IMG/VR virus record: IMGVR_UViG_3300034121_000850
Coordinates: 18,889 to 82,888 of that record
DNA: 64,000 nucleotides
Reading direction: 5' to 3' (one strand)
Source: a virus
The notes beneath the pieces were generated by a model. The model did not search any database, had not been told where the DNA came from, and saw only the letters and a program-made list of their open reading frames with translations. Made by a program: the position numbers and the translations under genes. Positions 2,692 through 63,359 of the stretch are shown here, in pieces; the stretch's first letter is position 1, and each line of letters begins with the position of its first letter.

Positions 2692-3039
2692 ATGGAATTA
2701 CTTAGAGAACCAACCAATGATGAGTTAAAAAGATTTTTTGAAGAATTTGTACCTGTTAATAATTTTATTGCAGTTATACCTCCACAAGTTAAAGCTAAAA
2801 CAGCAGGGGGAATACATAAAACTGATTTAGAATTAAAGCAAGAACTTAATGCACAAAATAATTCTCCGATGCTTGTAATACATACAGGTGGAAATGAAGC
2901 TTTAAAAGTATTTGATAAAGTTATATTTTCAAGACACGCTGAACCTGATTACATTTTTCAACACCCAGTGCATAAAGGTTATCAGATAAGACTATATAAC
3001 TTTATATATGTAGTTGCTACTGTTAAACAAGACGCGTAA
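2692..3039 (+). CDS. GroES-like co-chaperonin
   Basis: A 115-residue protein with the layout of chaperonin-10. An N-terminal beta segment (NNFIAVIPP, about 23-31) is followed directly by VKAKTAGGI (about 33-41), the same TAGGI string that marks the GroES mobile loop. Next come a MLVIHTGGN strand, a KVFDKVIFSRHA element matching GroES 'VKVGDKVLF', and a C-terminal strand YNFIYVVATV. GroES binds the GroEL ring through the hydrophobic residues after GGI (usually IVL); here the loop reads GGIHK. Phage co-chaperonins (T4 gp31 type) help fold capsid proteins. The fold call is inference from short motifs but the order and spacing fit. The stop overlaps the next ATG (TAATG). Confidence 0.6.
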   Translation: MELLREPTNDELKRFFEEFVPVNNFIAVIPPQVKAKTAGGIHKTDLELKQELNAQNNSPMLVIHTGGNEALKVFDKVIFSRHAEPDYIFQHPVHKGYQIRLYNFIYVVATVKQDA

Positions 3040-3269
3040 TGTTAAAGATTATCAAGGTATCAAGTAAAACACCTATAAAGAAAGTAAGTAAGACTTTAGT
3101 TATTAAACCTGTAAAAGGAAATACTAACTTATTAACTACTTCGGATATATATAAAATACCATTAGATAACGGAGTTATTAGTTCTAAACATGGTTTTATA
3201 GGTAAAAGGATATTTTGTGCTAAAATATGTATGTTTAGTGGTAAATCAAGTATGCCTGATAAGATTTAA
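3039..3269 (+). CDS. Small basic hypothetical protein (76 aa)
   Basis: A 76-residue lysine-rich protein, translationally coupled to the GroES-like gene through a TAATG overlap. It has two cysteines close together (FCAKICMF, about 59-66) but no complete metal site. No family is recognised. It is the last gene of the rightward block and is followed after 17 bases by the bidirectional terminator that separates it from the leftward late genes. The coupling suggests a role alongside the co-chaperonin, but this is only positional. Confidence 0.6.
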   Translation: MLKIIKVSSKTPIKKVSKTLVIKPVKGNTNLLTTSDIYKIPLDNGVISSKHGFIGKRIFCAKICMFSGKSSMPDKI

Positions 3270-3286
3270 GTCAAAAAACAACGTAC

Positions 3287-3345
3287 AAAAAAAAGCCTTC
3301 TGCACCAATACCTTAACGGTTTTGATGTAGGAGGCTTAACTTTTT
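3287..3345. terminator. Bidirectional terminator between convergent gene blocks
   Basis: A 12-bp stem, AAGCCTTCTGCA at 3293-3304 with TGTAGGAGGCTT at 3326-3337 (two wobble pairs), encloses a 21-base loop. An A run precedes it (T run on the minus strand) and AACTTTTTG follows it. It lies between the last rightward gene (stop 3269) and the end of the 2,070-aa leftward gene (stop 3358). It can therefore stop both the rightward transcript and the 54-kb leftward late transcript. Confidence 0.8.
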
Positions 3346-3357
3346 GTTATAGTATGT

Positions 3358-6300
3358 TTAATTCGCGCTATACAACTTATAGTACCTATTATTATTCTCA
3401 AGATTAAACCATTTATCAATTTGATTTGCTAATGGTAAAGTCTTTATAAATTGCACTTGTACTTTCAATTCACCATGTCTTGCACCCCCGCGATAATAAT
3501 TTTTATCCTCTTGACCTGCAATAATATTTAAAGGATATTTAGCAACATTAGTTAAAAGTGTTAATATATCAGAACTAGCTTTAAAAGCAGCAGCAGGATT
3601 TTGAACTAATTTTTGTGATTCATTTATCCAACCATAAGGACTGTATGTATTTAATTCGCTTGCTATACCATCTAATTCATATAAAGCAAGATTATAAAAA
3701 GTAGAAGCTTTTAAATCTTCATCGTCATCTGCAAAAGAACGTAATAATCCTACTAATGCGAGGAATGCAACTACTGTAATCATTTCTAATAAAAACCTTT
3801 TAATTTCTCCTTTTTCTATATCAGATAATTCAAACCAATATATTTGTAAATTTTGTACAAACTCAGCATAATTATTAATTACACTACCAAGAGTTGCATA
3901 AAAATCCCTATCACCATCTTCATTCCAATGAAAATCTTTAGCTTCTTTAAAAGGTCTTGTAAGAAATTTCCAAGCAGAAATATAATCTCCAGTACTAGCA
4001 TAACCTAATGATTCATTATGTATAGTTTCACCAAAAACTTGTCCAAATCTTTTATTCCAACCAGGCATAGCCCAATGTCTAAATTGCATAATTAATTGAC
4101 CTGTAATAGTATGTTCTATCGTACCTTTATCAAAAGTATTATATATACCATGTATTCTATGATTTACTGCCATTATTTTTCTACGAAATGCACTTTCATC
4201 AAGAATACTTATACCACTATTAGGTTTTAATACAGCTAACCCATCTTTTAATTCATACATTTCTAAAACTTTTTTATAAGTTTTAAATTCTTCTTTTGCT
4301 TTTAAAACTTTTTCATTATACTCCTCCATAAGAGTAGGATTTTTTATAATTTCTTCTTTGGTAGGTTTATTTAATGATTCTTTATACATTCTAAAGTTCA
4401 TAATTTTACCACCAATTACTCTATGTGAGTGCATCATACTAAACATACCAGTCATTTGCATTTGATGTTCTGCACCATTCATCATAAAGAAACCAAAATC
4501 ATTTACTCTTTGTAAAGCTGTTTCTTTAGAAAATTCAAAATTATTATTCTTTTCAGATAATTCACGAGTATCCTGATAAATACCAAATCTTTTAATTAAA
4601 GCATTTTCTATTGAACTTGCGTTAGTAATATCGTCATTTTGCATATCTGTAAAATAACTTCCTAAACCATTATGATATGAACGCATACCACTTGCAAAAG
4701 ATTCTCTATCAAAATCTATTTCAGAACCTGATTCAATAGCCATTTGTATCATACCATAACCTTCATTTTTAATTGCAGCAAACATATTCAAATATAATCC
4801 TTTTAAAGATATAAACTGTTTTAAACCTTGTCCTAATTTAGTTTTCAAACCTTCATCTTCTAAATAATTACCTTCATAAAGCATTTCAATAAATAAATCA
4901 ATATGTTTAAGAACATTTGAATCTTTAGCGTCTACTAATACATTAGTAGAAGTTCCAGTAGCTTTAGACCTTAGTAAATCTAAAATTGAACCTTTTCCAT
5001 CTTGTCTAATAATTTTACTATTAGCTATTGCATATCTTAATAAAGTTATATCAGATTTTATATGTTGCATCATTTCATGGGAAACAGCAGCTTCAATAAA
5101 TTTAGGAAAAGTTTTACCTAAATCTAAATTAATAGAATTTTTATGTAGTTCTAAATTAGCAAGTTTTATTTCATTATTCTTATCTATAACTTCTTGTAAT
5201 GTTTTAAATTCACCAAGTTCAAGATACTCTAAATGAGATAGTACACTTGCTTCATAAGCTTCGGGAGTTTCACCTCTCATTTTTCTCCTTACAGGTAAAA
5301 GTTTTTCAGCACCAAGTAAACCTATAAAACGTAAAGGTGTTATAAGTACTTTTTCTCCTGATATATCAATTACTTGTTCATGAGGTTTTTTAGGTTTCTT
5401 TTTTTCTAATTTAATATATTCTTCAGTACCCATTGAAGGTATATTAGCTTCAGCAGCAGTTAAATTAGTATGTTTTAAAAGGTCAGCAAATTCTTTTTTA
5501 AAGTATGTATAAAATTCAAAAGCTTCGGGTTTACTTTTTAATACATCATAACCAGGATTAATCCAATTAGAATTTGGTAAAGCCATACCTTTAGCATCAG
5601 CTTTAAATTTAGGATTTATAAATTGAGATTTAACTTTACTACTTGTATAAACTCCACCAGGCATTAACATACTATCATAATATTCAACAATTTGTCCTTT
5701 TATTACAGTAGAAACAAGATTAATACTTAAATCCTTTGGCATTATAGTTGTCCATATACGAATAGGCTCAATTTTTTTAGTATAAGGATTTTCAGTATGA
5801 TTTAATTTATACCATGCAGTATCTTCAAAACCATTTTTTAATTTTTTAGTTCTTTTTGCGTAAAGGTCTATTTGCTTTGCAAGTTCAATATCGTAATATT
5901 CAGTAGTTTGAAAATCAACTAAATCTTGAAATTCTTTTAAAGCATCATCAAAATCAGCATTAGCAGGACCATCATATTCTTCTTCAGATTTAACAGAATC
6001 TTGTAATCTTCTAATTTTAAGAGCAACCTTTTCAGGAACTAAATGTCCCATAACTCTTCCTTGGTCATCAAGATAAGGTTTAGTTAACTTTTTAATTTCC
6101 TCATTAATGTCTACATTAGAGTCACTTCTAAGAATACTTAAAATTCCATTAAATTTATCCCAAAATGCAGGAGAAGGTTTAAAATTTCTTTGTATAGTAT
6201 GTTTAGATGTATCTGTATTTTTAATTGCTTTAAATTTTGCTAAATCATCTAATACTTCTTGTAATGGTACAATTAAAAATGATTCCATCATTTCAGTAAT

Positions 6301-51854: not shown

Positions 51855-54038
51855 TTAATTAAAATATTCATCAAATTGTCTTGAATGTTCAGGACTTGAA
51901 GCTACAACACCTGATACAAGTTCTTCTTTATAATCAAACATTCCTACTATCATTGTAGATATACGGTCAAAGTTACCCTTATTATTGAACTTAATAAGTT
52001 CACGAACTAAACCCAAATCAAATATATAGTGTAAATTTAAAATTGAATTACCATTTATATCTTTTTCTACTTCTTCAAGTAACCAATCCTTTAAATAAAT
52101 GATACCTGTTTCCTTACGTGCAGTATTAATATGTATACCCCAGTTTCTACCAGTCTTACCACTTAACTCTTTTTTCCATACAATCTCAGGTTCAGCTGCA
52201 AGATATTCTAATAGTTTATATCTCTTAGCATAAGGTATAACTTCTCCTCTATCATTTTCAAACTGTAAACCTTCATATGTATTATAGTATTCTGCTATTA
52301 AAAACAACTGTTCATTATATTCATCAGTTCTTGCAGGACGACCAGCATATGCAGCTACAATTCTATTACCTTTAGTTTTAGTAAAATTATTAGGTTTTTC
52401 AAAAACATATGTAACACCAAGTGAATCTCTTGTAGTAATATTCTCTTTAGTTTTATCTACTGCAAAAGGGTCATGCCAAACTCTATATAAATTTTTAGGA
52501 ACTACACCACCAACTTTAAAAGGAGGACTCCATTCTACAAATGCACCATTAAGGTTATCTTCGGGTTTAGTAGGGTAATGTATCAAAGGACTTACATTAG
52601 CTTCTATATTTAATCTAACTCCTGTTTTAGTTCTTACTAATAAACCTACTCTACCAAGATTATTTAATTTAACATTCTTCATTAAATGCTTTTCATGTTG
52701 TGAAAGCATCTCAACAGGAAAGATATTATTACCACTACGTTTAAAAGCTTCTGATGGACAATTAGGTTTCTCCATCATATAATCATCTAAATCCGTAGTA
52801 GATTGACTAGTTTTCTTTATTCTTTCTTTTTGTTTCTTCTCATAATCAAAAGCTTCTGATTTTAAACTATTACCATCCTTATCAATAAAACCAGGCATAT
52901 TAAGATATTGTGGAACAAAGAAACCACAATCAGTACCTTCAAAACCTTCATCCCAAATATTATTAAAAGATATACATTTATAAGTAGATGGATTATAAAA
53001 TATTTGTTCAAAGTTAGCCCAGTTAGTATCTTTACCACCACCTGTACCAAATATAAGAATCTGTCCTGTACTATAAATACCATCTTCAATAGTAGGTTGT
53101 GTAGAAGCTAATGATTGTAATAGATTAGCCCACTTACCAGCTTCTTCAAATAGTATTAAAGTTCCATCTTTACCACGAGCAGCGCCAGGTCTATTAGGCC
53201 CAAATGATACAGCTATAACTTGACTCTTATTACCTCTTTCAATTTCCGGACTATCAGTTAGCTTATAACCAATCTTAATATGGTCCATACTATCAATTAG
53301 CCTTCTCTTACTCCAATCAGTATGTTTATTAAGAAACTGTAAATAATTATCAGTCATAGACATAGTACCCTCAGGATACAGATATGCACTATCATATGCA
53401 CCTACAACAGTAATTGAATCTTTATATAAATCAGCTCTATTAGCAGCTATGAAACCATTTTTATAACTATAACCACCTCTACGTTTTTTACCTACACAAA
53501 CATTTAAACCAAGACCTCTTGCAACTTCTTTAACTGTAAAATAATAAAAATCACCATCCCAAAAATCAGGGAAAGTGATTTGTTTAGTAGCAGATAGATA
53601 AGTATTTTTTACAACTTTTTCTCCACCTGTTTCATTAAATTTACGCTTCTCAAATTTACTTTCTCTTGGGTCTTTAGTAACTTTAATTTGTCCATAATTT
53701 AAATACCCATAATGTTCCCCTGTAATATGAATCTTTTGGATTTTAGCTTCTTTACCATCATAATACAATTTACCATTTAATGTAATTCCTTCTCTTCGTT
53801 TATGTTCTTCTCTATCCCAAAAGTCTTTATAATCTTTAGAATTTTTAGGAGCTTTAGTATATACACCATGCTTCATAAAGTATTGTGCAGCTTCTGTTGC
53901 TTCTGCAGTATTAACAAAAGCAATATCCTCAAACGTAAATAGAGGTGTATCATCATTAACACTCTCTTTTAGTTTGAGGATACCATCTGCAACTCTATCA
54001 TGTATAATAGGGTTGTATATACTTTGACTTATGAACAT
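51855..54038 (-). CDS. Terminase large subunit
   Basis: A 727-residue protein. Walker B is visible as GTLILFEEAGKW (about residues 286-297), and a coupling-like GQILIFGTGGGKD follows (about 326-338). The C-terminal RNase H-like nuclease region begins near residue 515 with YRVWHDPFAV, containing the first catalytic aspartate. A following acidic segment is EPEIVWKKELSGKTGRNW. An N-terminal domain of about 130 residues includes ITGEHYGYLNYGQI, a pattern found in crAss-type and T4-type terminases. It powers DNA packaging through the portal, encoded directly downstream. It starts 1 base after the stop of the 100-aa gene upstream. Confidence 0.85.
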   Translation of the reverse strand: MFISQSIYNPIIHDRVADGILKLKESVNDDTPLFTFEDIAFVNTAEATEAAQYFMKHGVYTKAPKNSKDYKDFWDREEHKRREGITLNGKLYYDGKEAKIQKIHITGEHYGYLNYGQIKVTKDPRESKFEKRKFNETGGEKVVKNTYLSATKQITFPDFWDGDFYYFTVKEVARGLGLNVCVGKKRRGGYSYKNGFIAANRADLYKDSITVVGAYDSAYLYPEGTMSMTDNYLQFLNKHTDWSKRRLIDSMDHIKIGYKLTDSPEIERGNKSQVIAVSFGPNRPGAARGKDGTLILFEEAGKWANLLQSLASTQPTIEDGIYSTGQILIFGTGGGKDTNWANFEQIFYNPSTYKCISFNNIWDEGFEGTDCGFFVPQYLNMPGFIDKDGNSLKSEAFDYEKKQKERIKKTSQSTTDLDDYMMEKPNCPSEAFKRSGNNIFPVEMLSQHEKHLMKNVKLNNLGRVGLLVRTKTGVRLNIEANVSPLIHYPTKPEDNLNGAFVEWSPPFKVGGVVPKNLYRVWHDPFAVDKTKENITTRDSLGVTYVFEKPNNFTKTKGNRIVAAYAGRPARTDEYNEQLFLIAEYYNTYEGLQFENDRGEVIPYAKRYKLLEYLAAEPEIVWKKELSGKTGRNWGIHINTARKETGIIYLKDWLLEEVEKDINGNSILNLHYIFDLGLVRELIKFNNKGNFDRISTMIVGMFDYKEELVSGVVASSPEHSRQFDEYFN

Positions 54039-57042: not shown

Positions 57043-57092
57043 AATTTTAGTTTCTTTAATATTAGTAATTTGTTTTAACCTATTGGTTTCAG

Positions 57093-57100
57093 CAAAGATA
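57093..57100 (-). promoter_or_regulatory. Candidate Bacteroidota-type -7 element for the late block
   Basis: On the minus strand this reads TATCTTTG, a perfect match to the Bacteroidota -7 consensus TAnnTTTG. It is placed 51 bases before the first late gene. No good TTTG -33 element lies 19-21 bases upstream; the nearest is farther away (TTTTGT at 57131-57136, minus strand). It may depend on an activator or on the phage polymerase, or be chance in an AT-rich sequence. Confidence 0.4.
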
Positions 57101-57231
57101 ACTAAAAAAACATAGCAACCTAATCTTTTAACAAAATTTTTTATTCACCATTAAACCACTATCATTAATGCTATTAACATTTTACCCTGTAATTATAACA
57201 ACCAACTATTATTAAAAAATGTTTATTATCA

Positions 57232-57263
57232 TTTGTATATATGGAATTCAGTTTTTATATTTA
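57232..57263 (+). promoter_or_regulatory. Candidate Bacteroidota-type early promoter
   Basis: TTTG at 57232-57235 and TATATTTA at 57256-57263 are spaced by 20 bases, one mismatch from the Bacteroidota TTTG-N19-21-TAnnTTTG promoter. Transcription would start near 57270, giving a leader of about 180 bases that includes the palindromes before the 246-aa gene. Confidence 0.45.
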
Positions 57264-57323
57264 CAGGGTTAAATACATTATTATAAATATACTAATATTA
57301 ATACTTCAAGATTTTCCTATGTC

Positions 57324-57347
57324 CACGCGTGTATATGCGTACATATA
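57324..57347 (+). promoter_or_regulatory. Two abutting palindromes, possible operator or leader hairpin
   Basis: CACGCGTG at 57324-57331 is a perfect palindrome. It directly touches TATATG-CGTA-CATATA at 57332-57347, a perfect 6-bp inverted repeat. They are the only GC-containing palindromes in the control region and lie downstream of the candidate early promoter. They could be protein-binding sites or form a leader hairpin. Confidence 0.45.
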
Positions 57348-57452
57348 AAGGGCTGAAAAGCTTTATACTAATTTTAATACTATAACAGAATTAAACGCTG
57401 ATAGTACAATGCAAATAAACTCATATAACTAAAAACAACTAAATTTAATAAG

Positions 57453-59730: not shown

Positions 59731-60429
59731 ATGGCAAAAGCTATTCCTGTTAAAGTGAGCTCTACTGTAAGAGCAATTGTTGCACTTGACGTTGACCGTG
59801 AGGTTACTAATGGTAAGGGCAACACAAGTGTATACACTCATCGTATGCACCTTAACCAATCTCCATCCTTAAATGCTGCTCATAGTGAGTTAAGCAAAGT
59901 AAAGAACGAGAATGGTAAACCTTTATCCTTTGGTTCATTGACTAGCAATGGTACATTTGCTGTTGATTTGAAGGCAGGTGAAGCTAAGCGTCTTGCTAAT
60001 ATGGCAGGAGCAATGGGTATTAATCAGCTTGTTGGTGCTTCTTATCAAGGCACTATTGTATATAGACCGAAAGGTTCTACGTATGAAACAAGAGATGGTG
60101 AAACCCTTGAAGTTGGTTCTACACACGTAGCACGTGAAGATGAACAACTTAAGCTTACTATGGAGCAACTTAATGCAATAGCTTATGCTTCTGCAATGAT
60201 TGCTTCATCTACTGCTAAGAAGGAGGATGAAGTGATTCAATCATTTGGTTTCGGCTCTATTGCTGATGCTGGTAATGATGATGATGAATCACTTGATACA
60301 GGGTTTCAAGATGGTGAAGGTGCAGATGATGATTCGCAAGAATCTGAAACACCTGAAACAACAGAAACACCTGTTGATGACTTAGCTGATGTAGTAGCCA
60401 ATAAAAAGGCTGCTAAGGCAGGTAAGTAA
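59731..60429 (+). CDS. Abundant early protein with acidic C-terminal tail, ssDNA-binding-like candidate (232 aa)
   Basis: A 232-residue protein. Residues 1-165 are a mixed beta/alpha globular part with STVRAIVALDVDREVTNGKG at the start and YQGTIVYRPKGSTYETRDGE around 107-126. From about residue 185 it becomes an acidic linker rich in Asp, Glu, Ser and Thr, and ends with a basic KKAAKAGK tip. A globular DNA-binding domain followed by an acidic tail is the layout of phage ssDNA-binding proteins, and crAss-like phages encode one among early genes, but the OB-fold is not certain. GC content and codon choice are clearly higher than in neighbours, suggesting strong expression. It is followed by a very strong terminator. 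Confidence 0.6.
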   Translation: MAKAIPVKVSSTVRAIVALDVDREVTNGKGNTSVYTHRMHLNQSPSLNAAHSELSKVKNENGKPLSFGSLTSNGTFAVDLKAGEAKRLANMAGAMGINQLVGASYQGTIVYRPKGSTYETRDGETLEVGSTHVAREDEQLKLTMEQLNAIAYASAMIASSTAKKEDEVIQSFGFGSIADAGNDDDESLDTGFQDGEGADDDSQESETPETTETPVDDLADVVANKKAAKAGK

Positions 60430-60433
60430 GGAA

Positions 60434-60484
60434 TATGATGGAGGAGTGCAGGTCGGGCTGCATTCCTTCGTCATAATTCTTTTG
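60434..60484 (+). terminator. Very strong intrinsic terminator
   Basis: An 18-bp stem (60434-60451 with 60458-60475; a few G-T pairs) with the 6-base loop GTCGGG starts 5 bases after the 232-aa gene stop. It is followed by ATTCTTTTGT. It is by far the longest hairpin in the coding modules and should stop almost all transcription from the upstream strong gene. Confidence 0.8.
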
Positions 60485-60494
60485 TAAGAAGGGA

Positions 60495-60546
60495 TATCGA
60501 CAGAAAATGTCGATGTTTTAATAATATCGACAGAAGATTGTCGATA
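60495..60546 (+). repeat. Two tandem copies of an ATCGACA...TGTCGAT hairpin
   Basis: Copy 1 is ATCGACA (60496-60502), loop GAAAA, TGTCGAT (60508-60514). Copy 2 is TATCGACA (60525-60532), loop GAAGAT, TGTCGATA (60539-60546). The stems are identical, the loops differ, and the copies are 29 bases apart. A conserved stem with variable loop points to a repeated protein- or RNA-binding element rather than a terminator, although copy 1 is followed by TTTTA. Confidence 0.7.
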
Positions 60547-60677
60547 AAGGTAGACGGCATAAATAATTGGCTTAAATAGTTGAAAATATACTATTCGCAC
60601 CAGTTTAAATCGCTGCTCCAAAACTTGGTGTTAACAAAATTACAAGCGAAATTATAACTCAAATAACAACTGTAATC

Positions 60678-60911
60678 ATGGATGCTAATACAATTACACT
60701 AAAAATTAAAAGTAGTAAAGTTATGATTCATAATCATACTCTTCATGCTACGAGAGTAAAACATTGCGCAACGCATTCTATAAGTGATGAATTTAAATCA
60801 CAATATAGTCAAGTGTATTCAGTTGCTTGTCAGCAAATAAATGATGCCCTTATGCGTCAATATCAGCTTGAAATGTTATTATTTAAAGAACATCAAGATG
60901 ATATCAGGTAG
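60678..60911 (+). CDS. Small hypothetical protein (77 aa)
   Basis: A 77-residue protein with a beta N-terminus (NTITLKIKSSKVMIHNHTLHA) and a helical C-terminus (SQVYSVACQQINDALMRQYQLEM). Its His residues (HNHTLHATRVKHCATH, about 18-33) could bind a metal with Cys 30, but no family fits. Its leader (AACTCAAATAACAACTGTAATC before ATG) closely resembles that of the gene at 61842. It overlaps the following membrane microprotein by 14 bases. Confidence 0.6.
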   Translation: MDANTITLKIKSSKVMIHNHTLHATRVKHCATHSISDEFKSQYSQVYSVACQQINDALMRQYQLEMLLFKEHQDDIR

Positions 60912-60990
60912 TGGATTACTAATAATCCTTGTTGTTATTGCAGTTGTTATAGTAGCTGAACAACGATACAAGGGAAGAAGAGGTTGGTAG
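60898..60990 (+). CDS. Single-span membrane microprotein (30 aa)
   Basis: A 30-codon gene starting MISGSGLLIILVVIAVVIVAE and ending RYKGRRGW. A glycine/serine N-terminus is followed by a 15-residue hydrophobic segment (about 7-20) and a strongly basic C-terminus, the classic layout of an N-out/C-in single-span peptide. It overlaps the preceding gene by 14 bases. Such microproteins in phages include holin-like, superinfection-exclusion and host-membrane-enzyme inhibitors; the sequence does not choose between them. Confidence 0.5.
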   Translation: MISGSGLLIILVVIAVVIVAEQRYKGRRGW

Positions 60991-61064
60991 TGCTGGTCTT
61001 GTTGCTTATAGTCTATGTGTGGTTAGTGCATATGATGATTTGTCTTATGGTTAGGGGTAACTAA
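60990..61064 (+). CDS. Hydrophobic micro-ORF (24 aa, GTG start)
   Basis: A 24-codon frame that starts with GTG overlapping the last base of the preceding TAG. It encodes (M)LVLLLIVYVWLVHMMICLM followed by VRGN. Almost every residue up to position 20 is hydrophobic, which is unlikely by chance in a frame so tightly coupled to another membrane microprotein. The pair resembles two-component membrane peptides. The GTG start and the tiny size keep confidence low. Confidence 0.3.
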   Translation: MLVLLLIVYVWLVHMMICLMVRGN

Positions 61065-61119
61065 GATGAAAGACTGTAAGAGAACGAGCCAGTACTACTA
61101 ATACCCTTATTGTTATTAT

Positions 61120-61741
61120 TACTATTTTAGTTGCCCAAATTATACCGTAATACTTCAGTATTAACTAATTCATATAACCCCAATAACAGTAATAAGCAAT
61201 TATAATAAGGTAGGAATACCGCAAGTAACCATATAATCATGGGAAGTTGTATAGAATAAAATCTCTTGACTTATATTAAAGTTAATGTCTTAAAAGCAGA
61301 GAGTAATACAGGCTAAAATGCTGTTCTATATGATGGTGGAATACTATTATAATTGTATAATACTTTAATCAATGTATAACTCATGTAGTTAATATCTTAA
61401 ATGGTTGACTGAAGAAATATAGGTCGTAGAAATGCAAGTACATTTAAGATATGAAACTACCCTGATTAATATGACTCCTATACTTGAGATATAACATTAG
61501 TTATAATCAAAACAGTTAGAAATCAGTCTAAGCTTGTATGCTAAATATTAATCAGTATAAATGAGTAGTTGTAATAACCTAAATACGATGAATTAATATA
61601 TTCGTAATATGGTCTATGTTCTAAGATAAAGATATTATCAAGGATTATTACAACTAAGTACATTAATTATTAGTAAAAGGTTATAATACTTAGGTGGTTT
61701 CATAAGTATTATGTAAAACTGTTTAACGCAGTTTCCTTTTA
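61120..61741 (+). ncRNA. Large structured non-coding RNA candidate (about 620 nt), unknown family
   Basis: Paired arms in order: TTAGTT/AACTAA enclosing AATAC-TTCA-GTATT (61127-61168); GGTA-GGAA-TACC (61209-61220); an 11-bp G-T-containing pair 61246-61256 with 61324-61334; TATTAT/ATAATA (61345-61362); ATATCTTAAATG 61392-61403 with CATTTAAGATAT 61441-61452, extended by GTAGTT/AACTAC to 18 bp; TGATTA/TAATCA (61463-61509); TTAGA/TCTAA (61516-61531); AGTTGTAATAACCT 61567-61580 with AGGATTATTACAACT 61641-61655 (one bulge), enclosing TACGA/TCGTA and GATAA/TTATC; ATAATACTTA/TAAGTATTAT (61683-61712); and a final AAACTG/CAGTTT terminator. Size, density of long-range pairing and phage location next to a tmRNA recall ornate phage RNAs such as GOLLD and ROOL, but I cannot show homology. 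Exact ends are unknown. Confidence 0.6.
61716..61740 (+). terminator. Terminator at the 3' end of the structured RNA
   Basis: AAACTG (61716-61721), loop TTTAACG, CAGTTT (61729-61734), followed by CCTTTT. It comes 3 bases after a 10-bp hairpin (61683-61712), as expected for the 3' end of a discrete RNA transcript. Confidence 0.6.
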
Positions 61742-61841
61742 TTATATAATAAAGAATAACTCTTTTATGTTCCTGACATAGAGTATAAAGAATGTTAAAT
61801 ACAAGGAGTGCATGGTAGCTCAAACTCAAAAAACTTTAATC

Positions 61842-63030: not shown

Positions 63031-63359
63031 TTCTCAATAACATATTAAAATACTTAGACATTGTCCTTTTAAGTTAAGGCTTGCATGAAATGTCCGTCAG
63101 GTGAGATGCCTAATTCTTGTAGGAATACAAGGTCATAGCATAAGTGATTATGAAACAATGCAGGTTATATGTTCACTAGAAAACATAATGTAGGTGAAAA
63201 TCCTATAAACTAAAAACTTAAATAACTTTCCAAGTTGTTGAGGACAGCATAGTTCTTTTTATAATTCAATATGATACTACCCAGAGTAAACAACTACTCG
63301 TATTAATTGATTATATAAAGTTTCTGCTGTAAAACACAAACTAACTAAAACAATTACCC
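63031..63359 (+). other. 329-bp gene-free stretch between the 298-aa and 45-aa genes
   Basis: No frame of useful length on either strand. Most of it (63050-63300) is filled by the structured RNA candidate described separately. The last 60 bases form the A-rich leader of the 45-aa gene. Confidence 0.7.
63050..63300 (+). ncRNA. Second structured RNA candidate with GNRA hairpins and a loop pseudoknot
   Basis: Visible pairings are: GACAT 63057-63061 with ATGTC 63090-63094, enclosing CCTT/AAGG; CTTGTA-GGAA-TACAAG (63116-63131); CATAA-GTGA-TTATG (63139-63152, a GNRA tetraloop); TATGTT/AACATA (63168-63187); TAGG/CCTA (63191-63205); AACTT-TCC-AAGTT (63224-63236); and GAGTA-AACAAC-TACTC (63284-63299). 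The loop AACAAC of the last hairpin is the exact complement of GTTGTT at 63234-63239, giving a pseudoknot across 50 bases. The GTAGGAATAC hairpin core also occurs in the larger RNA at 61210-61219. The family is unknown; it could instead be a long 5' leader controlling the 45-aa gene. Confidence 0.5.

Follow-up and report, generated by a model that had tools for sequence, protein, structure and literature searches.

Two described families of phage RNAs come closest to the element analyzed here. GOLLD is a large, multi-branched, pseudoknotted RNA of phages and prophages that occurs in tRNA/tmRNA neighbourhoods and comprises a conserved part and variable arms, and ROOL is a phage-borne RNA that lies near tRNA islands, contains several pseudoknots, and has no known protein (PMC12286853). 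Our element, designated E3, resembles GOLLD in being phage-borne, multi-branched, and pseudoknotted, in occurring in the vicinity of tRNA or tmRNA genes, and in having variable arms; however, E3 is 104–343 nt long, whereas GOLLD is often over 800 nt, and E3 has other conserved motifs and no Rfam match. E3 resembles ROOL in being phage-borne, pseudoknotted, and located near tRNA islands, but differs from it in fold and size and is likewise without an Rfam match.

E3 occurs in crAss-like phages, which are more abundant in the human gut than any other known phages. Rfam 15 and the open-access papers searched yielded no conserved non-coding RNA of crAss-like phages, and none of these papers describes E3 or the two companion families reported below, E2 and R1 (all three names were coined in this analysis). 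What this analysis adds is one RNA family for which the fold, a pseudoknot, and a fixed genomic address are defined, together with the two companion families.

A gene-free stretch in a divergent crAss-like phage

The window analyzed is a 64,000-nt stretch comprising bases 18,889–82,888 of an 82,888-base virus record. The window phage is a divergent crAss-like phage: PHROG families match its terminase (51858–54038, − strand), its portal protein, and its major capsid protein with E-values of 1e-86 to 1e-111, and the nearest named Crassvirales capsid is 36–38% identical to its own. The ORF listing contains no gene across 61063–61811 (~750 nt). The 5′ neighbour is ORF 60678–60911, followed by two tiny membrane-peptide frames, 60898–60990 and 60987–61062 (GTG start), and the first credible gene on the 3′ side starts at 61812. 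With 15 large genes of the window phage as the training set, codon log-odds are negative in six of six frames of the stretch (−0.16 to −0.27, as compared to +0.07 to +0.28 in neighbouring genes), and each frame contains 15–32 stops. A tblastx search did not find a decayed protein in the stretch, and reading TAG and TGA as sense, as in alternative codes, did not reveal a convincing gene. The claim of a preliminary description that the stretch is free of genes is thus upheld by the ORF listing and by codon usage in all six frames, and codon usage and tblastx both speak against the decayed protein gene that the same description had considered as a counter-explanation.

The preliminary description had further proposed a densely paired RNA locus of 620 nt. 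The segment 61120–61745 folds with a z-score of −3.0, with 0 of 100 shuffles at least as low. The dense pairing is therefore real, but pairing density by itself is no proof: folding as low is also seen in 2 of 48 other 626-nt segments of the phage on the same strand and in 6 of 48 on the opposite strand, and slices of the region 200 nt long fold unremarkably. Intrinsic folding of the whole 626 nt is suggestive only, and homology therefore had to decide.

Known RNA families gave no match. A scan of the window against Rfam, at gathering and at permissive thresholds, yielded chance-level matches only, and no family, GOLLD, ROOL, OLE, and raiA included, scored above its gathering threshold, in agreement with the earlier decision to assign the locus to neither GOLLD nor ROOL, and scans of nine E3 loci yielded no Rfam match at the E3 sites. 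ARAGORN found no tmRNA, and the window holds no permuted tmRNA (RF04321); the best match to the latter in the record, 10.5 bits, lies elsewhere. A blastn search of the stretch against named phages returned only short AT-rich matches with E-values of 0.08 or worse.

Identification of the E3 family

A terminase alignment yielded 80 distant relatives, with identities of at most 53%. Many of these have gene-free gaps of 400–1100 nt upstream of the terminase that share blocks. One such block is R1; a second, also located in the window, is E2, and a pattern made from E2 retrieved 92 phage DNA stretches. When the gene-free stretch was compared with these loci, a single 35-base segment, 61442–61476, recurred as the match in different phages, on the same strand as E2 wherever E2 was present. 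Each single blastn match was no better than shuffles; the matches were counted as evidence because different phages match the same stretch on the E2 strand, and they were followed by an independent test with a covariance model, R2.

R2 comprises nine extended-class relatives (see below), with the window left out; the choice of region was prompted by the window match, and no window base is in the model. With filters off, R2 matches the window at 61371–61575 (+ strand) with 43.3 bits and an E-value of 1.2e-8, a rough value from a short calibration; the runner-up in the 64 kb has 12.2 bits and an E-value of 1. With default Infernal filters, R2 misses the window, and further divergent E3 members may therefore be missed. 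By homology, the window segment 61365–61669 is a divergent member of E3, a family of structured RNAs that occurs in many crAss-like phages and is absent from Rfam. The suggestion that the locus holds an ornate phage RNA of an unfamiliar family is in this way supported by homology, by compensatory changes (see below), and by the lack of an Rfam match.

The E3 consensus reads AAUGCACC..CUCAC-[arms]-CUCCCAAGG-GUGAG-CAGUUGUAAU..AUUACAACUGAGUGCAGAGGG. Two classes can be distinguished: an extended class, in which H2 contains the arms H3 and H4 and which includes the window, and a minimal class, in which H2 is a plain hairpin. A scan with the 3′ half yielded 27 distinct E3 sequences in IMG/VR phages, window included; these relatives were all taken from a single collection, most of them by means of one pattern. 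E3 and minimal-class queries had no blastn match among named phages, and the exact E3 motif had no match among GTDB genomes. Multiple E3-type units per phage are present in five relatives (L218, L234, L152, L176, and L209), one of which has an apparent run of degenerate E3 copies (L209, about 1200–2250, − strand), which suggests expansion and turnover like those of tRNA arrays.

The E3 fold and its covariation

The E3 domain (61365–61669, + strand) is closed by H1 and has two branches: H2, from which two long arms extend (H3 plus its arm, and H4), and H5. Its extent in the window is supported by the R2 match, by the minimum-free-energy (MFE) structure, and by direct reading of the 3′ strands of H1 and H5. 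Specifically, the H1 5′ strand AAUGUAU (61371–61377) pairs with GUACAUU, placed at 61658–61664 from sequence and fold (core UGUAU/GUACA); the H2 5′ strand CUCAU (61380–61384) pairs with AUGAG (61561–61565); the 5′ strand of H3 plus its arm (61385–61403) pairs with 61441–61460; the H4 5′ strand CUGAUUAAUAU (61462–61472) pairs with AUAUUAAUCAG (61545–61555); and the H5 5′ strand AGUUGUAAUA (61567–61576) pairs with UAUUACAACU (61646–61655). Two of these helices had been noted before any relative was in hand: the 18-bp long-range stem 61385–61403 with 61441–61460 is H3 plus its arm, and the 14-bp bulged stem 61567–61580 with about 61643–61655 is H5.

The helices vary among relatives while retaining pairing. 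In particular, H1 is 100% paired in relatives, with the variants UGCAC/GUGCA, UGUAU/AUACA, and UGCGC/GCGCA; H2 occurs as CUCAC/GUGAG, CCCAU/AUGGG, CUGGU/ACCAG, and CCUGA/UCAGG; H3 occurs as GUAG/CUAC and GUGG/CCAC; and in H4 four pairs have both sides changed. Among the nine extended-class relatives, window excluded, 90.7% of cells are paired, as compared to 83.9% in shuffles and 31–45% in slid controls, and 8 of 24 pairs are changed on both sides, a value reached by 0 of 500 shuffles. In the minimal class, where the window is present only as a 3′ fragment, the structure with the pseudoknot is 98.8% paired, and 9 of 23 pairs are changed on both sides (0 of 500 shuffles). The pseudoknot of the relatives is formed by the H2 loop CCC and the 3′ tail GGG, which tie the two ends, and also occurs as CCA/UGG and CAC/GUG; both of its variable pairs are among the minimal-class pairs changed on both sides. 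As judged from these alignments, the helices of E3 are shown to be maintained by compensatory change while arm sequence and length vary freely, and the compensatory changes in the previously listed stems are abundant rather than lacking. We consider it almost certain that E3 in the window is a selected RNA fold.

The window retains all five helices, H1–H5, both by pairing and in its own MFE structure. H1, H2, and H5 are completely paired with variants of their own, and H2, H3, and its arm are fully paired in the window when it is included in the alignment. The MFE structure of 61365–61669 alone has the same helices as the covariation structure, and this core folds with a z-score of −5.0. Both strands of the core fold equally well, and the strand is therefore assigned from the relatives and from the direction of the genes. 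The loop-tail pseudoknot is absent from the window, where the loop is GUAUAA and the tail is UUAAUU, both partners being lost together; the window member may thus be relaxed or altered.

Conservation extends over 61365–61669 (~305 nt) and not over the whole of the proposed 620-nt locus: about half of it (61120–61364), together with the 3′ hairpins, is without a detected homolog. The 5′ flank (61063–61364, + strand) is non-coding by codon usage and is predicted to fold into separate hairpins; a homolog search with this flank found none. On the 3′ side, a predicted three-way element, AAAAGG/CCUUUU (61675–61740, + strand), encloses two hairpins, and a homolog search with it also found none. The second of its hairpins (61716–61734) is followed by U-rich CCTTTTATT. 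The hairpin-plus-terminator end that had been proposed for the locus is thus present as a terminator-like element, but it is weak and was not called in a terminator scan.

Companion RNA families E2 and R1

E2 is a small hairpin whose 3-nt loop pairs with its tail, with an additional stem, CACC/GGUG, in most relatives. The window contains an E2 element at 63212–63346 (+ strand), identified by a profile HMM built without the window (E-value 2.9e-7) and by its loop-tail pairing: S1 is CUUAA/UUGAG, the loop UCC pairs with the tail GGA, and the further stem is CAGCA/UGCUG (also given as ACAGC/GCUGU). The loop-tail pairing is kept in 58 of 61 members, in several pairing variants, as compared to a mean of 29.8 and a maximum of 36 in shuffles. 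Members comprise the window, L130, L137, L145, L091, L209, L218, and about 60 others, and often lie just 5′ of a start codon or just 3′ of E3. E2 is present in ten named gut crAss-like phages (cr6_1, cr10_1, and cr109_1 among them), always outside annotated features; in cr6_1 it lies inside a 1.07-kb gap.

R1, a third family, measures about 250–400 nt; its hairpins covary, it has long motifs that do not vary (ACACAAAUGAGUUCUCRGCAAGUAGUUA and GUGACCCUACUCUUAU), and it is absent from Rfam; where E2 and R1 were scanned, neither matched an Rfam family. Like E3, R1 is found in crAss-like relatives in the zone with few genes that lies upstream of TerL; it differs from E3 in having separate conserved motifs. 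R1 is present in 7 of 40 records tested. Its sites include 3846–4106 of L091, 5348–5612 of L139, 3111–3291 of Cellulophaga phage phi14:2 (L249), and over 30 others, and in several phages, on contigs of up to 322 kb, it adjoins tmRNA or tRNAs. In phi14:2, R1 is unannotated and lies in a 1.7-kb gene-free zone (2904–4602) beside tmRNA. The stretch in the window was tried as an R1 member and rejected: the best match of the R1 model on the window has 13.1 bits and an E-value of 1.5 and lies elsewhere.

Two further observations concern R1. First, in a crAss-like phage (L018, 6–235, − strand), a permuted tmRNA (RF04321, 56.9 bits, cut-off 47) lies directly beside R1. Second, the R1 RNAs of two different phages (L036, 1300–1396, and L093) have nearly the same sequence, AATGAAAAGTTACGGAACAAGACA.., in an otherwise hypervariable loop, a hint that phages exchange RNA modules.

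With E2 in named gut genomes and R1 in the cultured phage phi14:2, expression and knock-out experiments on these zones can be designed now.

Genomic address of E3

In the window, E3 is carried by the + strand of the divergent gene block, opposite to the terminase, and its distance upstream from the terminase start is 7.3 kb. A related crAss-like TerL is encoded by 23 of the 26 E3 records tested, and in eight of eight relatives measured (G033, G034, G036, G067, L163, L193, L206, and L190) E3 lies 4.4–8.4 kb upstream of the terminase, on the opposite strand. E3 loci often adjoin E2, R1, tRNAs, or tmRNA (tRNA or tmRNA in L108, L198, L219, and L226). The spacing between E3 and the gene that follows differs greatly among loci and reaches about 900 nt: in some relatives, E3 lies 30–60 nt before an ORF or 1–4 nt before E2, and in the window, the next ORF follows E3 after 147 nt and a U-tailed hairpin. 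No relatives were found when IMG/VR was scanned with single proteins, those of the flanking genes at 59731 and 62134.

Proposed role of E3

The most likely role of E3, in which we have modest confidence, is that of a free-standing phage RNA with exchangeable arms. E3 would be transcribed rightward with the + strand genes of its block, and the RNA would be released, or would end, at the hairpin after 61675. It would then act in trans as a self-contained folded scaffold with a constant closed core, and its exchangeable arms would carry specificity, as is thought for GOLLD and ROOL. The hypervariable arms, the several copies per genome, and the varied distance to the next gene fit a self-contained RNA.

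The main alternative is that E3 is a cis-acting, intercistronic, pseudoknotted mRNA domain whose function would be to stop nucleases, to direct processing, or to adjust the translation of the gene that follows. The short spacing before a gene, or directly before E2, in some relatives fits a cis element; E2 is itself often 5′ of a start codon. E3 copies occupy spacers between genes and share the strand of the genes that follow, with several copies per genome. However, the wide variation in distance to the next gene and, in the window, the 147-nt separation with an intervening U-tailed hairpin are at odds with a cis element, and the long hypervariable arms exceed the needs of a simple stabiliser. 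We regard a cis-acting domain as unlikely, though as a serious competitor to a free-standing RNA.

It is improbable that the zone is an element of the DNA itself, for example an origin of replication or a packaging site, that extrudes hairpins while its RNA fold is incidental. The fixed position of E3 near a strand-switch region, where GC skew turns at about 57 kb, and the conservation of that position between distant relatives would agree with such an element, but the skew turn is 4 kb off, at the divergent gene switch, E3 occurs in several copies per genome, and G-U pairs are kept. The loop-tail pseudoknot covaries, which is sensible only in single-stranded RNA and makes a DNA element unlikely.

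A chance origin, from AT-rich sequence with accidental repeats or from a decayed gene, has next to no probability: although pairing density, measured over 626 nt, ranks only near the 4th percentile among segments of the same phage and the single blastn matches are no better than shuffles, this reading conflicts with the covariation, the conserved genome position, and the non-coding codon usage, and is already refuted by the independent covariance-model match unless its E-value of 1.2e-8 is wrong by many orders of magnitude.

Taken as a whole, a selected E3 fold at a conserved place, forming a self-contained RNA that would act in trans, is the best explanation and probably the correct one. More tentatively, and with doubt on our part, Crassvirales may maintain, upstream of the terminase gene, an island of structured RNAs from at least three unrelated families (E3, E2, and R1) that are swapped and duplicated as modules and serve in trans as RNA-only scaffolds during infection. 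If that were true, the RNA-only scaffolds E3, E2, and R1 would form one more natural class alongside GOLLD and ROOL.

Other features of the window

The two frames that precede the gene-free stretch encode membrane-spanning peptides, MISGSGLLIILVVIAVVIVAEQRYKGRRGW (60898–60990) and, from the GTG start of the overlapping frame 60987–61062, MLVLLLIVYVWLVHMMICLMVRGN, the latter a candidate only. GC skew reverses sharply at the divergent gene switch (about 57043–57452), and in relatives the spacer at this switch holds a C-rich block that is conserved, CCCACTACTAAGTTTTGGGAATGGAACTCCCCCGT, and that may be either a divergent promoter or one more RNA. The strongest-folding 200-mer of the whole window is 60401–60600 (z-score −9.6). 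Within the zone 60434–60548, a long terminator hairpin (60434–60475) lies 3′ of ORF 59731–60429 and is followed by two near-identical tandem hairpins, ATCGACA-GAAAA-TGTCGAT and ATCGACA-GAAGAT-TGTCGAT, which are possibly a protein-binding pair.
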